Source: Rhodospirillales bacterium (lineage in GTDB: Bacteria > Pseudomonadota > Alphaproteobacteria > Reyranellales > Reyranellaceae). From it: a stretch of 64,000 nucleotides of DNA. The stretch covers positions 1-64,000 of the forward strand of contig CANIEC010000008.1 in assembly GCA_947466085.1 (NCBI GenBank). The letters are read 5' to 3'. The notes under the pieces were generated by a model. The model was not told the DNA's origin, did not search any database, and worked only from the letters and a program-made list of their open reading frames with translations. This document shows positions 33,632-42,181 of this stretch, piece after piece. Position numbers and translations under genes: made by a program. Positions within the stretch are counted from its first letter, which is position 1. Each line of letters opens with the position of its first letter.

Positions 33632-34804
33632 TCAGCTCCCTGGCAGTTCCACGGTTGCAATGGCCTGGGCCGCGATGCCTTCGCGCCGCCCGGTGAAGCC
33701 CAATCCCTCGGTCGTCGTCGCCTTCACGCTGACCCGTCCGGAGGCAACGCCGGCGATGGCGGCGATGCTGTTCACCATGGCGTCGCGATGCGGCCCGACC
33801 TTGGGGGCTTCGCAGACGATCGAGACATCGAGGTGAACGATGCGGCCGCCGCGCGCCGTCACGAGATCGACGGCGTGACGCAGGAAGCGGTCGGAGGAGG
33901 CGCCGCGCCATTGCGGATCGGAGGGCGGGAAGTGCTTGCCGATGTCGCCGGCGCCGATCGTGCCCAGGACGGCATCGGTCAACGCATGCAGCGCCACATC
34001 GGCGTCGGAGTGACCGGCAAGCGCATGTGTGTGCGCAATGGCGACGCCGCCCAGCATGACGGCATTGCCCGGCGCGAAGCCGTGCACGTCGAAGCCGAGG
34101 GCGGTGCGGGTTTCCATGTGAGGCAAGGAGAGGTCGGCGGTGTTGGTGATCTTGCGGTTATCTTCGCTGCCCGCGACCATGACAAGCTTCAGCCCCGCCC
34201 GCTCGGCGACGGCGGCATCGTCCGTCAGCGCGGTCGCTTCGTCGGCGGCGAGCGACGCCGCTGCGCGGTGCGCCATCAGAAGGGGCGCGAAGCGAAAGAC
34301 CTGCGGTGTCTGCGCGCGCCACAGGTCGAGGCGCGGCACGGTCTCCGTGATCGCCTGGCCCGCGCCGACGCGCTTCAACGTATCGGCGAGGGGAATGCCA
34401 AGGATGGCGCCATCGATCCCGTCGGCCGAGGCGGCGGAGAGGCACGCCTCGATGTCGGCAGGCCGCACGAAGGGGCGGGCCGCGTCGTGGATGGCGACGA
34501 AATCCGGCGCCGTAGAGGCCAGGGCTTCGAGGCCGTGCAGCACGGACTGCTGGCGGCTGCTGCCGCCCGGCACCGGCTGGGGCAGGTCGAGCCCGCGTGT
34601 CGCGGCCTCGTAGCGCGCGTCATCTCCCGAACCGATCACCACGATAACGCGGCCGACGGCAGGCGTGGCTTGAAAGGCGGCGATGGTCCGGCGCAGGACG
34701 GGCTCGCCGTCCAGAAGCGCATATTGCTTGGGCAGTGGGCCGCCGAAGCGGCTACCGCGGCCGGCCGCGACGATCAGGGCGGTAACTCTACGCATTATGC
34801 GCAA
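33632..34804 (-). CDS. ispDF: Bifunctional IspD/IspF enzyme of the MEP pathway
   Basis: A 390-residue fusion. Residues about 1-230 are the cytidylyltransferase IspD (ALIVAAGRGSRFGGPLPKQY is the nucleotide motif; IHDAARPFV follows). Residues about 233-390 are the cyclodiphosphate synthase IspF (ALGFDVHGFAPG and LAGHSDADVALHALTDAV metal motifs; TTTEGLGFTGRREGIAAQA C-terminus). The two act at steps three and five of isoprenoid precursor synthesis. Fusion is typical of alphaproteobacteria. It is divergent from dusB with 113 bases between. Confidence 0.97.
   Translation of the reverse strand: MRIMRRVTALIVAAGRGSRFGGPLPKQYALLDGEPVLRRTIAAFQATPAVGRVIVVIGSGDDARYEAATRGLDLPQPVPGGSSRQQSVLHGLEALASTAPDFVAIHDAARPFVRPADIEACLSAASADGIDGAILGIPLADTLKRVGAGQAITETVPRLDLWRAQTPQVFRFAPLLMAHRAAASLAADEATALTDDAAVAERAGLKLVMVAGSEDNRKITNTADLSLPHMETRTALGFDVHGFAPGNAVMLGGVAIAHTHALAGHSDADVALHALTDAVLGTIGAGDIGKHFPPSDPQWRGASSDRFLRHAVDLVTARGGRIVHLDVSIVCEAPKVGPHRDAMVNSIAAIAGVASGRVSVKATTTEGLGFTGRREGIAAQAIATVELPGS

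Positions 34805-37030: not shown

Positions 37031-37034
<4 letters not shown>
35925..37034 (+). CDS. ntrB: Nitrogen regulation sensor kinase NtrB (NR II)
   Basis: A 369-residue cytosolic histidine kinase. A PAS domain (about 14-115, [20 protein letters not shown]) precedes the phosphoacceptor His149 ([15 protein letters not shown]). The ATPase domain has the N-box LVKNACE, the G1 box RDNGRGV and the later [14 protein letters not shown]. It phosphorylates or dephosphorylates NtrC according to nitrogen status via PII. The start ATG 35925 overlaps the dusB stop; MSDQF at 35955 is an alternative start. The ntrC start overlaps its stop (ATGA). Confidence 0.96.
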
Positions 37035-38506
<1,472 letters not shown>

Positions 38507-38510
38507 TTTC

Positions 38511-40742
38511 GTGACAGCTGCGCTGGGCGTCTCACGCTTGGGCGACAAGATGAGCGCGGTGCTTCGCAGCCTTAGCGGTCGCATTGCCGCCGTCTCGTTG
38601 GCCATCCTCGCCATGGCCGCGGGCGGCGCGACCTATGCGTGGCTCGCCGGCTTCGTGCCGGAATCGTTCGGCACGCGCGGCTGGATGACGGGCCTGCTGG
38701 TGGCCGATCTGGTCATCGCGATTGCCCTGGTCTCCGTGGTTGCCGTTCGCCTGACCCAGCTCTGGCTCGACCGTAGGCGCGGCGCCGCAGGCTCGCGCCT
38801 GCACATGCGGCTGGTGCTGGTCTGCAGCGTCTTCACGATCACACCGACGGTCATCGTCACCATCATCCTGTCGATGCTGGTGATCAGCCTCACCGACTTC
38901 GTCGTAAAGCCGTCGCAGGCCTCCTACGAGGCCGCCCGCGCCATCGGCGAGCCGGTGCGGCGTGCCCGCGAGCAGGAGATCCTGAACGACATCGGGGCTA
39001 TCTCCGCCCCGCTGCAGGCCGAAGGCGTCGACGCGGTGCGCGACCCGGCGGCAACGAAGGCGCTGCTGGAGCGCCTGATCGAGGGACGACCGATCATCGA
39101 GGCGACCGTGCTCGATGCGGACAAGGGGGTGATCGCCCAGGCCAAGGCGCCGGATGCGACGGGCATGGCCAATCCCGTCCCGCCGGCCCAGTTCCTCTGG
39201 CAGGCGGTGAACCAGGCGCGGCCCGTGCAGATCGAATCGCCGACCGGCGCCTACTTCGTGATGCAGCTCTTCGTCGGCGAGCCGCTGTTCCTGGCAACCG
39301 GCCACGCCGTCGACCTCAGGGTCGTCGACTACATCAAGAGCATCGAGTTCGCAGGCTCGTTCTATTCGCAGATCGAATCGGCGCTGCGGCGCAGCCAGCT
39401 CATCATCTTCGTGGTGTGCGGCGCCATCGCCTTCCTGATGCTGCTGGCCGCCGTGTGGCTCGCCATCCTATTCGCCACACGCCTGACCGAGCCGATCGGC
39501 GGCCTGATGCAGGCGGCCGAGAAGGTGCGGGGAGGCGATCTCAGCGCCCGCGTGGAGGAAGGACCGCCCAACGACGAGCTGGGCCAGCTCGCGCGCTCCT
39601 TCAACCGCATGGCCAGCCAGATCGAGCAGCAGCGTGGCGAACTGGTGCACGCCAATACAGAGCTCGACACGAGGCGCCGTCTCACCGACGCGGTTCTGGC
39701 GGGCGTCTCCGCCGGCGTGTTGAGCGTCGACGGCGAGGGCATCGTGATGCGCTCCAACCGGTCGGCGCTCGACCTGCTGGCGCTGCCCGAGGACGGCGTG
39801 CTGGGACGGCCGCTGATCGCGGTGATGCCGGAACTTGGGCCACTGGTCGCACAGGCGGCGGAGCGGCCAGATCGGATGACCCAGGGTCAGGTCGAGATCC
39901 TGCAGCGCGGGGCGCGGCAGATCCTGCTGGTTCGTATCAGCGCCGCCACGGGTGCCGGCTTCGTCGTCACCTTCGATGACGTCACCGACCTGATGTCGGC
40001 GCAGCGCATGGCGGCGTGGGGCGACGTGGCCCGCCGAATCGCGCACGAGATCAAGAACCCACTGACGCCGATCCAGCTCTCCGCCGAGCGGCTGAAGCGG
40101 CGCTACCTGAAGCAGATCAAGGACGATCCCGAAACCTTCTCGATGTGTACCGACACCATCATCCGGCAGGTCGGCGACATCGGGCGCATGGTCGACGAGT
40201 TCTCCTCCTTCGCCCGCATGCCGCGGCCGACGGTCAAGGAGGAGGATGCGAAGGAGTTGTGCCAGCAGGCCCTGTTCCTGCAACGCAACGGTAATCCCGA
40301 TATCCGCTACACCGCGAACCTGCCCACCCATCCGGCGCCGCTCAACTGTGACCGGCGCCAAGTCTCGCAGGTGCTGACCAACATCCTCAAGAACTCGGCT
40401 GAGGCGATCGAGGGCAGGGACGAGAAGTCGGACACGCCCTTGCCACAGGGAGAGATCAGCCTGTCGCTGATCGAGGACGAGTCCGGCATGCGCATCGTCG
40501 TGGAAGACAACGGTCGGGGACTGCCGAAGGAGGGGCGCGAGCGGTTGACAGAGCCCTACATGACCACCCGGAGCAAGGGCACCGGCCTCGGTCTCGCGAT
40601 CGTGAAGAAGATCATGGAGGACCATGGCGGGTTCCTGTCGCTGCAGGATCGCGAGGGTGGCGGCGCGCGCATCAGTCTGGTATTCCGACGAGACGCGAAG
40701 GAAATCGCGTCGGCTCGACCGCAGGCGACAGCCGCACAATGA
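38511..40742 (+). CDS. ntrY: Nitrogen/redox sensor histidine kinase NtrY
   Basis: A 743-residue membrane kinase. Hydrophobic helices are at about 25-45, 57-81, 98-130 and 295-325, with a periplasmic region between the third and fourth. A HAMP linker follows (TRLTEPIGGLMQAAEKVRGG, about 323-342), then a PAS domain (about 395-500), the phosphoacceptor His512 (RRIAHEIKNPLTPIQL), and an ATPase domain (VEDNGRGLPKEG and TGLGLAIVKKIM). It starts at GTG 38511, 4 bases after ntrC. It is the partner of NtrX. Confidence 0.95.
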   Translation: MTAALGVSRLGDKMSAVLRSLSGRIAAVSLAILAMAAGGATYAWLAGFVPESFGTRGWMTGLLVADLVIAIALVSVVAVRLTQLWLDRRRGAAGSRLHMRLVLVCSVFTITPTVIVTIILSMLVISLTDFVVKPSQASYEAARAIGEPVRRAREQEILNDIGAISAPLQAEGVDAVRDPAATKALLERLIEGRPIIEATVLDADKGVIAQAKAPDATGMANPVPPAQFLWQAVNQARPVQIESPTGAYFVMQLFVGEPLFLATGHAVDLRVVDYIKSIEFAGSFYSQIESALRRSQLIIFVVCGAIAFLMLLAAVWLAILFATRLTEPIGGLMQAAEKVRGGDLSARVEEGPPNDELGQLARSFNRMASQIEQQRGELVHANTELDTRRRLTDAVLAGVSAGVLSVDGEGIVMRSNRSALDLLALPEDGVLGRPLIAVMPELGPLVAQAAERPDRMTQGQVEILQRGARQILLVRISAATGAGFVVTFDDVTDLMSAQRMAAWGDVARRIAHEIKNPLTPIQLSAERLKRRYLKQIKDDPETFSMCTDTIIRQVGDIGRMVDEFSSFARMPRPTVKEEDAKELCQQALFLQRNGNPDIRYTANLPTHPAPLNCDRRQVSQVLTNILKNSAEAIEGRDEKSDTPLPQGEISLSLIEDESGMRIVVEDNGRGLPKEGRERLTEPYMTTRSKGTGLGLAIVKKIMEDHGGFLSLQDREGGGARISLVFRRDAKEIASARPQATAAQ

Positions 40743-40774: not shown

Positions 40775-42181
40775 ATGGCCCACGATATTCTGATCGTCGA
40801 TGACGAACGCGATATCTGCACGCTGATCGCCGGCATCCTCGAGGACGAGGGTCACACCGCGCGCCGTGCCCACAACAGCACCGAAGCGATCGAGGCCGTG
40901 CGACAGCGTAGGCCGGCCCTGGTCATTCTCGACGTCTGGCTGCAGGGCAGCGAGCTCGACGGGCTGCAGATCCTCGAAGTCATCCGCCGCGAGGATCCGC
41001 CGATCCCCGTCGTGATGATCAGCGGCCACGGCACGATCGACACCGCCGTGTCTGCGATCAAGAGTGGCGCCTACGATTTCGTCGAGAAGCCGTTCAAGGC
41101 CGACCGCCTGCTGCTCGTCGTCGACCGCGCCATCGAGGCCGACAAGCTGAAGCGCGAGAACGTGGCGCTGCGCCGGCGCGCCGGCGGCGAGGTGACCTTC
41201 GTGGGCTCCTCCAGCGACGCCGCCAACGTGCGTGCGCAAATCGAGAAGGTGGCGCCGACCGGCAGCCGCGTCCTCATCACCGGCGCCTCCGGCTCGGGCA
41301 AGGAAACGGCGGCTCGGCTGATCCACCAGGGGTCGAAGCGAGCCGACGGGCCCTTCGTGGTCGTCAATTGTTCGACCCTGCCGGCCGAGCGGCTGGAGAT
41401 CGAACTTTTCGGCACCGACGGTGACACCGATGCCGAGGCGCTGCGCGTATCGGGTGCGTTCGAAATGGCGCATGGCGGTACGCTGGTGCTCAAGGAAGTG
41501 GCCGACCTGCCGCTGGTGCTGCAGGGAAGGCTGGCGCGCCTGTTGCAGGAACAGTCCTATGCGCGCGACGGCGGCAAGACCAAGGTCGAGGTCGACGTAC
41601 GTGTCCTGGCGACGACGGCGCGCGACCTGCAGGAGGAGATTGCTGCCGGCCGCTTCCGCGAAGATCTGTTCCACCGCCTGAACGTCGTGGGACTGCGCGT
41701 GCCGCCGCTCAGCGAACGCCGCGAGGACATCCCCGAACTGGCGCTCGACCTGCTGAAGCGGGTCGCCGACGCCACCGGCCTGCCGGCGCGCTCGATCGGC
41801 GAGGATACGCAGGCGGCCCTGCAGGGTCACGACTGGCCGGGCAACGTGCGCCAGTTGCGCAACGTCATCGAGCGGCTGCTGATCCTGGCGCCGCCGGGCG
41901 GCGCGCCGATCCGCGCCGACGTTCTGCCCAACGACGTCAGCGAGGACGCGCCGTCGGTGCTGCGCTGGGAGAAGGGCGGGGAGATCATGCAGCTGCCGCT
42001 TCGCGACGCGCGCGAGGTCTTCGAGCGCGAGTACCTGCTTGCCCAGGTGACGCGTTTCGGCGGCAACATTTCACGGACGGCGACCTTCGTCGGCATGGAG
42101 CGCTCGGCCTTGCATCGCAAGCTGAAGTCGCTCGGCCTGCACGGCGGTTCGCTGGAGGGCGGCGGCGAGCCGCCGGTCTGA
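40775..42181 (+). CDS. ntrX: NtrX response regulator with degenerate AAA+ domain
   Basis: A 468-residue regulator. The receiver domain keeps Asp53 (VILDVWLQG). Walker A is kept (GASGSGKE, 170-177). The sigma-54 loop GAFTGA is absent; the segment reads LFGTDGDTDAEALRVSGAFE (211-230). Walker B reads LVLKEVADL, with Lys240 in place of the Asp of the DE pair, so ATP hydrolysis is doubtful. The Fis-type C-terminus is intact (GNISRTATFVGMERSALHRK). It probably acts as a phosphorylation-controlled DNA-binding regulator without activating sigma-54. Absence of GAFTGA in alphaproteobacterial NtrX is known; the Walker B change is the unusual part. Confidence 0.93.
   Translation: MAHDILIVDDERDICTLIAGILEDEGHTARRAHNSTEAIEAVRQRRPALVILDVWLQGSELDGLQILEVIRREDPPIPVVMISGHGTIDTAVSAIKSGAYDFVEKPFKADRLLLVVDRAIEADKLKRENVALRRRAGGEVTFVGSSSDAANVRAQIEKVAPTGSRVLITGASGSGKETAARLIHQGSKRADGPFVVVNCSTLPAERLEIELFGTDGDTDAEALRVSGAFEMAHGGTLVLKEVADLPLVLQGRLARLLQEQSYARDGGKTKVEVDVRVLATTARDLQEEIAAGRFREDLFHRLNVVGLRVPPLSERREDIPELALDLLKRVADATGLPARSIGEDTQAALQGHDWPGNVRQLRNVIERLLILAPPGGAPIRADVLPNDVSEDAPSVLRWEKGGEIMQLPLRDAREVFEREYLLAQVTRFGGNISRTATFVGMERSALHRKLKSLGLHGGSLEGGGEPPV

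Follow-up and report, generated by a model that had tools for sequence, protein, structure and literature searches.

Background

Alphaproteobacterial NtrX is known as an odd relative of NtrC that has no sigma-54 loop and yet keeps an AAA+ domain. The best solved relative of the protein described here is NtrX of Brucella abortus (530.8 bits with 5m7n; also 5m7o and 5m7p), for which the entry titles name structures with ATP and with ADP. It has the same domain order, is likewise GAFTGA-less and carries nearly the same HTH, but keeps the Walker B Asp (LYLDEVADM), unlike the NtrX of Reyranella, in which residue 240 is a Lys. Following Fernandez et al. 2017, Brucella NtrX is said to be without ATPase activity and not to oligomerise upon nucleotide binding or phosphorylation. 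PspF and the other sigma-54 activators (bEBPs) share with Reyranella NtrX the AAA+ fold, Walker A and the RxDxxxR arginines (PspF mapped by motif); Reyranella NtrX differs from them in having neither GAFTGA nor the Walker B Asp, and is predicted to be unable to remodel the sigma-54 holoenzyme.

The regulators of Rhodobacter capsulatus and Caulobacter are NtrC, not NtrX, but they are likewise GAFTGA-less members of the NtrC family and act at sigma-70 promoters; in the available part of PMC10274813, the R. capsulatus protein is described as needing ATP binding rather than hydrolysis, while the Caulobacter protein, though GAFTGA-less, requires the Walker A Lys and the Walker B Asp, the latter for growth on ammonium, where Reyranella NtrX has Lys. 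Given this requirement in Caulobacter, a missing GAFTGA alone is no proof that hydrolysis is idle. A more distant relative by fold is VpsR of Vibrio cholerae (7v2b; Foldseek rank 15, 28% identity in the structural alignment), which, unlike NtrX, binds c-di-GMP according to the entry title. We take VpsR to be the protein that is spelled "VspR" in the account given next. The available text of PMC10274813 describes the GAFTGA-less bEBP "VspR" of V. cholerae as acting at sigma-70 promoters with no need for ATP. By analogy, Reyranella NtrX most likely works in the manner of such GAFTGA-less NtrC-family regulators at sigma-70 promoters.

The ntrX gene and its neighbourhood

The window, by which we mean the whole stretch of 64,000 nucleotides that was analysed, carries at 40775..42181 (+) an open reading frame that starts with ATG and translates, with no internal stop, into an NtrC-family response regulator of 468 aa. 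This protein matches NF051870, the NCBIfam NtrX equivalog model, with 668.7 bits over residues 2-455 (cut-off 600) and has the Pfam domains Response_reg, Sigma54_activat, AAA_lid_14 and HTH_8, the last with 36.2 bits; PF00158, the model of the sigma-54 interaction AAA+ fold, scores 166.6 bits. A Foldseek search with a predicted model (mean pLDDT 82.4, pTM 0.57) returned the AAA+ domains of FleQ, FlrC and NtrC1, confirming the fold as modelled. By every feature tested the protein belongs to NtrX, and 40775-42181 (+), in a window that near-identical named records put in Reyranella, encodes the NtrX of a Reyranella species.

The phospho-acceptor Asp53 of the receiver (40931..40933, +) is present in 58/58 clade proteins and 173/173 other NtrX proteins that cover the site, and Walker A, GASGSGKE at residues 170-177 (41282..41305, +), has its Lys176 and Glu177 in all 58 clade proteins covering them; the original prediction had both elements retained, as translation confirms. 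It had also claimed that the sigma-54 loop is replaced, and in the place where sigma-54 activators have GAFTGA we find loop L1, TDGDTDAEALRVSGAF, at residues 214-229 (41414..41461, +). The canonical Asp-Glu of Walker B is Lys240-Glu241 (41492..41497, +), the stretch reading LVLKEVADL where NtrC of the same window reads LFLDEIGDM, again as had been predicted. Further downstream, the RxDxxxR motif, a motif named in the available part of PMC3419264, reads REDLFHR at residues 295-301 (41657..41677, +) with its arginine fingers kept, and the Fis-type HTH DNA-binding region occupies residues 405-455 (41987..42139, +) with a mean pairwise identity of 99.4% in the clade. By the GAFTGA test this NtrX is not a sigma-54 activator, though its AAA+ fold matches, and when its motifs are compared with those of a canonical AAA+ ATPase, Walker A agrees and Walker B departs.

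Directly 5' of ntrX lies ntrY (38511..40742, +), encoding a membrane sensor kinase with NtrY_N, HAMP, HisKA and HATPase_c domains, and in the same operon ntrC (37031..38506, +; TIGR01818, 691.8 bits), whose product has an intact GAFTGA and Walker B. GAFTGA and LFLDE were found in 30/30 Reyranella NtrC proteins, the top scorers among the 59 genomes that had a match. Among named clade loci, ntrY stands upstream of ntrX in 33 of 34, the remaining locus (L079) spanning only 109 bases upstream, and 27-59 bases separate the last sense codon of ntrY from ntrX at these loci. The dusB-ntrBC-ntrYX cluster is adjoined by a 390-residue open reading frame at 33632-34804 (-) of the window that resembles a fused IspD-IspF. 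The source genome carries rpoN, and of its 22 matches in the NtrX search only NtrX itself and NtrC extend beyond residue 142, leaving NtrC as the sole other sigma-54-activator-type AAA+ protein from that search of this 89% complete genome.

Distribution of the Walker B lysine

Our survey of NtrX reduced 279 loci to 232 distinct proteins, in which residue 240 is Asp in 162, Lys in 59, Glu in 7, Asn in 2, and Thr and Arg in one each. Lys was found in 59/59 distinct proteins of the Reyranella/Enhydrobacter clade, all sharing 84% identity or more with the window protein, and in 0/173 of the other alphaproteobacterial NtrX proteins. The alignment that the original prediction had proposed as a check therefore speaks against Lys240 as a common feature of NtrX, a possibility that we rejected. 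Each Lys protein comes from a genome of its own, and these make up 59 of the 66 clade genomes that were searched (genus g1 and G070); of the seven that could not be read at this residue, six, which are 73-89% complete, had nothing matching at E 1e-100, and G027 has a split gene.

The source genome is an assembly of 322 contigs with 89% completeness, a state in which one might suspect a sequencing or assembly artefact confined to one genome. Against this stand the presence of Lys in 59 distinct proteins of 59 genomes and in 35/35 named clade loci, including the records of R. aquatilis KCTC 52223, R. massiliensis 521 and Enhydrobacter aerosaccus ATCC 27094, and the fact that going from Asp to Lys requires two base changes. 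The chance of such an artefact is negligible, and assembly error was rejected.

A GAFTGA-like loop was absent from all 231 NtrX proteins covering the loop, in agreement with the statement in the original prediction that alphaproteobacterial NtrX has lost it. Outside the family, NtrX could be read in 129 of the 146 class genomes with a match, the 17 left out of the count having partial matches or internal stops and including several small genomes that are among the most divergent; NtrC outside the genus was read in 88 of 107. The Walker B Asp is kept in 123/129 of these NtrX proteins. The Asp-Glu pair is broken in 13/129 NtrX proteins versus 1/88 NtrC proteins (Fisher p = 0.009), a value to be read with the related, non-independent rows in mind and with an NtrX sample that extends into small, divergent genomes. 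Across parts of alphaproteobacterial NtrX, the Walker B site looks as though it were drifting. The six non-Reyranella proteins that have lost the Asp (to Asn, Glu, Thr or Arg) are L257, L270, L271, L274, L282 and L284; the Glu is lost in eight, one of which is also without the Asp. The single one of the 88 NtrC-search matches without the Walker B Asp, L440 (LYLPD), has no GAFTGA either, and is possibly a second hydrolysis-dead protein of the NtrC type.

A literature search, with subscription papers mostly outside its coverage, found no printed description of a Lys in Walker B of NtrX among the papers listed, which is weak evidence that none exists, and gave no lead on such a Lys in enhancer-binding proteins; a search naming the genus turned up a soil-community paper and no assay of any Reyranella NtrX.

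Evolution of residue 240

Within the clade, codon 240 is AAG in 55 and AAA in 4, while the nine distinct proteins of the sister genera have Glu in five (all GAG) and Asp in four (GAC or GAT). A single base change leads from GAC to GAG, and another from GAG to AAG. The tree was built from 15 representatives of the 57 full-length Reyranella-clade proteins, 9 sister-genus proteins, 34 of 78 nearer outgroup proteins and one protein from the order's second family; sites 240 and 282 were masked. In it the family forms one clade, and the Lys group sits with full support on a stem 0.33 long. An Asp-bearing genus adjoins a Glu-bearing genus, which calls for two origins of Glu or for a reversion to Asp. 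On this tree the replacement of the Walker B Asp by Lys probably took place on the Reyranella stem, via Glu. The order Asp, Glu, Lys is plausible from the codons but comes without proof, because parsimony needs at least 3 changes at residue 240.

Selective relaxation of the AAA+ domain

Pooled dN/dS in the clade was 0.165 for the AAA core (residues 143-310), 0.108 for the lid, 0.048 for the receiver and 0.009 for the HTH. Since the core still stands at only 0.165, purifying selection remains, and by this measure the core is constrained and not simply decaying. Pooled dN, taken as AAA core over receiver, gave a ratio of 4.05 (3.65-4.58) for Reyranella NtrX, from 933 of 1596 pairs with a synonymous difference of 0.05-0.5, against 1.86 (1.58-2.25) for NtrX of the sister genera, 1.26 (1.03-1.55) for a control genus of 30 proteins that all have Asp, and 0.58 (0.44-0.75) for Reyranella NtrC, from 418 of 435 pairs, where the control genus and Reyranella NtrC are non-random draws (in each case the 30 top-scoring genomes, out of 43 with a match and out of 59), and the intervals, from a bootstrap that resamples taxa and ignores shared ancestry, are too narrow. 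In another control genus, a small one with only 6 of 21 pairs usable, the ratio was 2.31 (1.06-4.26), a noisy value that speaks firmly neither for nor against the contrast. Branch lengths on a fixed topology, which are free of the shared-ancestry fault but carry no interval, gave ratios of 1.25 for the rest of the tree, 2.41 for the sisters, 4.69 for the Reyranella stem and 5.00 for its crown.

Of the sites conserved in at least 95% of 128 Asp-bearing outgroup proteins, those both unchanged and invariant in the clade number 36/53 in the AAA core and 11/14 in the lid, 38/40 in the receiver and 32/32 in the HTH, and 102 of the 168 positions of the core vary within the clade while 66 are invariant. 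On these rates and counts, the AAA+ core and lid are selectively relaxed in the clade with the receiver and HTH spared, and Reyranella NtrC has no comparable release of its AAA+ domain.

This strong relaxation of core and lid, together with the 19 AAA and lid sites whose conservation in other NtrX is 90% or more but which are altered or variable in the clade, versus 2 in receiver and HTH, would fit a pocket that no longer binds any nucleotide, with Lys240 neutralising Glu241 or filling the Mg site and the remaining motifs serving only folding and subunit packing. Such packing would not obviously require the Gly, Lys and Glu of Walker A and both arginine fingers, all of which are invariant in 58 proteins, and we consider an empty pocket possible but unlikely. 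The reading that we favour, and think probable, is that the AAA+ domain is a hydrolysis-dead, structural and possibly nucleotide-binding dimer scaffold in a phosphorylation-controlled, sigma-54-independent NtrX orthologue; the absence of ATPase activity, the promoter type and the retention of nucleotide binding are what we infer in this reading.

Loss of hydrolysis

The Asp of the hhhhDE motif is the residue that coordinates Mg, and position 240, going by this motif, is presumably the counterpart of PspF D107; what the original prediction had called the lost catalytic Asp is, by this analogy, the Mg-coordinating Asp. The next residue in PspF, E108, is proposed in the available part of PMC4132715 to position the hydrolytic water, and Glu241, its kept counterpart, is by the same analogy the catalytic one. 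In Table 1 of PMC3419264, a source available in part, PspF D107A has a Vmax of 0.23 versus 39.51 per min for the wild type and a Km of 300 versus 250 uM, that is, a loss of over 99% of Vmax. A Lys at the Walker B Asp should be at least as harmful as an Ala. One might still imagine that NtrX remains an ATPase in which Lys240 is tolerated or the metal is held by other residues, as Glu241, Walker A and the arginine fingers are intact and invariant as they would be in an active site; but the ~0.6% of Vmax left in PspF D107A, the expectation that a Lys repels Mg2+ and the finding that AAA relaxation is strongest in this very lineage make an active enzyme very improbable.

The loss of hydrolysis probably preceded the arrival of Lys, which would make Lys a late, clade-wide mark of that loss, because none of the 231 NtrX proteins has GAFTGA, because the Asp-Glu pair is broken more often in NtrX than in NtrC, and because Brucella NtrX, its Walker B Asp intact, is reportedly without ATPase activity. 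On the other hand, the 123 of 129 proteins outside the family that keep the Asp, taken with the case of Caulobacter NtrC, imply that the site is not idle everywhere. No printed statement on the ATPase activity of NtrX came up in the literature searched, the available parts of PMC5892882, PMC9937504, PMC4426382 and PMC9409073 being silent on it. The earlier proposal that hydrolysis was given up while DNA binding remained thus gains from the relaxed AAA+ domain, from the spared receiver and HTH and from PspF D107A, but errs, besides the residue label, in its scope: it spoke of an abandonment in this protein, whereas the whole clade, as far as it was read, carries Lys, and hydrolysis had probably disappeared before that.

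State of the nucleotide site

In the clade members that cover them, Gly170, Gly173, Gly175, Lys176, Glu177, Asn198 and Glu241 are invariant, as are arginines 295, 301, 359 and 362, which include the two arginine fingers and the Arg of sensor II. With Walker A, Glu177, the arginine fingers and the sensor II Arg kept in this way, nucleotide-dependent function may persist, and to that extent the original prediction is not supported as it stands. The Asp of RxDxxxR (Asp297) is replaced by Glu in 47/58 clade members, compared with Asp in 125/129 other class NtrX proteins and 87/88 NtrC proteins. The sensor I position is Ala in 37/58 clade members; the loss of a sensor I Asn as a mark of lost hydrolysis was weakened by NtrC itself, which has His there in 59/88 and Asn in 25/88. 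The absence of counterparts to PspF E118 and E125 from NtrX was likewise considered and dropped, as the intact NtrC of the window also has none at the aligned places.

A special protection of the pocket was not supported by the comparison of conserved pocket sites, kept in 9/11, with the other conserved AAA and lid sites, kept in 38/56 (p = 0.48). Because the pocket is not significantly better kept than those sites, its retention is compatible with nucleotide binding and does not demonstrate it.

The same sites bear on an adaptive role for Lys240, which might take the place of Mg2+ by contacting the beta and gamma phosphates, allowing tight, metal-free binding of ATP or another nucleotide without hydrolysis, in a sensor or locked state. 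It would fit such a role that Lys240-Glu241 is invariant in 59/59 while its codons vary (AAG or AAA, GAA or GAG) amid a core in which most positions vary, and that Walker A, Glu177, the arginine fingers and the sensor II Arg do not change; but with 66 of 168 core positions invariant a single invariant site is weak evidence, the conserved pocket sites are not significantly favoured over others, and there is drift at the Asp of RxDxxxR and at the polar position of sensor I. This adaptive role is to our mind improbable. An extended version, in which Lys240 replaced Mg2+ stepwise through Asp, Glu and Lys in a site that binds ATP but never hydrolyses it, and the former motor now reads nucleotide state as a ligand, a metal-independent nucleotide receptor, is likewise improbable.

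A candidate NtrX box near ntrY

The available part of PMC9223101 describes S. meliloti NtrX as binding CAAN2-5TTG-type sites, with lower expression where the sites overlap start sites, and as requiring phosphorylation of D53; for R. sphaeroides NtrX, which is mainly an activator in the available part of PMC7240162, a different motif has been proposed, per PMC9223101. Because the window NtrX and Brucella NtrX hardly differ in their HTH, the two probably share a binding site of the Brucella type. The only CAAN2-5TTG match in the 33.5-44.5 kb part of the window is CAACACGTTG, a CAAN4TTG candidate NtrX-type box at 38431..38440 (+), within the 3' end of ntrC and starting 80 bases before the ntrY start. 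The Leu codon from which its TTG comes is TTG in 30/30 full-length ntrC genes of Reyranella, whereas the spacer's Asn codon is AAC in 17 and AAT in 13; the motif is present in 40/42 of a wider ntrC set, in which TTG makes up ~10% of Leu codons, and outside the genus it occurs at the same place of ntrC in 15/88. Only 4 of 59 invariant-Leu positions, that of the box included, have one codon in all 30 ntrC genes. It is as if a regulatory element for ntrYX overlapped the ntrC 3' end. Around it, 7 of the 15 ntrC codons 464-478 (38420-38464, +, of the window) are identical in all 30 Reyranella genes, and the mean modal codon share at invariant ntrC residues is 0.795. The entire 3' end of ntrC is rather well conserved at synonymous sites, and the whole window holds 27 CAAN2-5TTG matches where shuffles give 18-31; for both of these reasons the box at 38431-38440 is a candidate that is suggestive only.

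Conclusions

In the mechanism that we envision around a scaffold without hydrolysis, NtrY would phosphorylate Asp53, as it is taken to do from the family, the receiver-AAA+ unit would act as a dimer scaffold, and the receiver and HTH would control binding at CAAN2-5TTG-type sites. From what is described for its relatives, NtrX may then activate or repress housekeeping promoters without sigma-54 remodelling. Hydrolysis would already have been dispensable in alphaproteobacterial NtrX, and the ATPase domain would have been further released in the Reyranellaceae. On the alignments, the Lys240 NtrX is real, clade-wide as far as it could be read, and informative, though it only goes one step further on a path already known. 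A clade with Lys, beside sister genera that have Asp or Glu and with an NtrC paralogue left intact in the operon, makes a natural experiment, which lets one ask what role the AAA+ domain still plays when hydrolysis has become next to impossible, and whether the job that remains to it is nucleotide binding.
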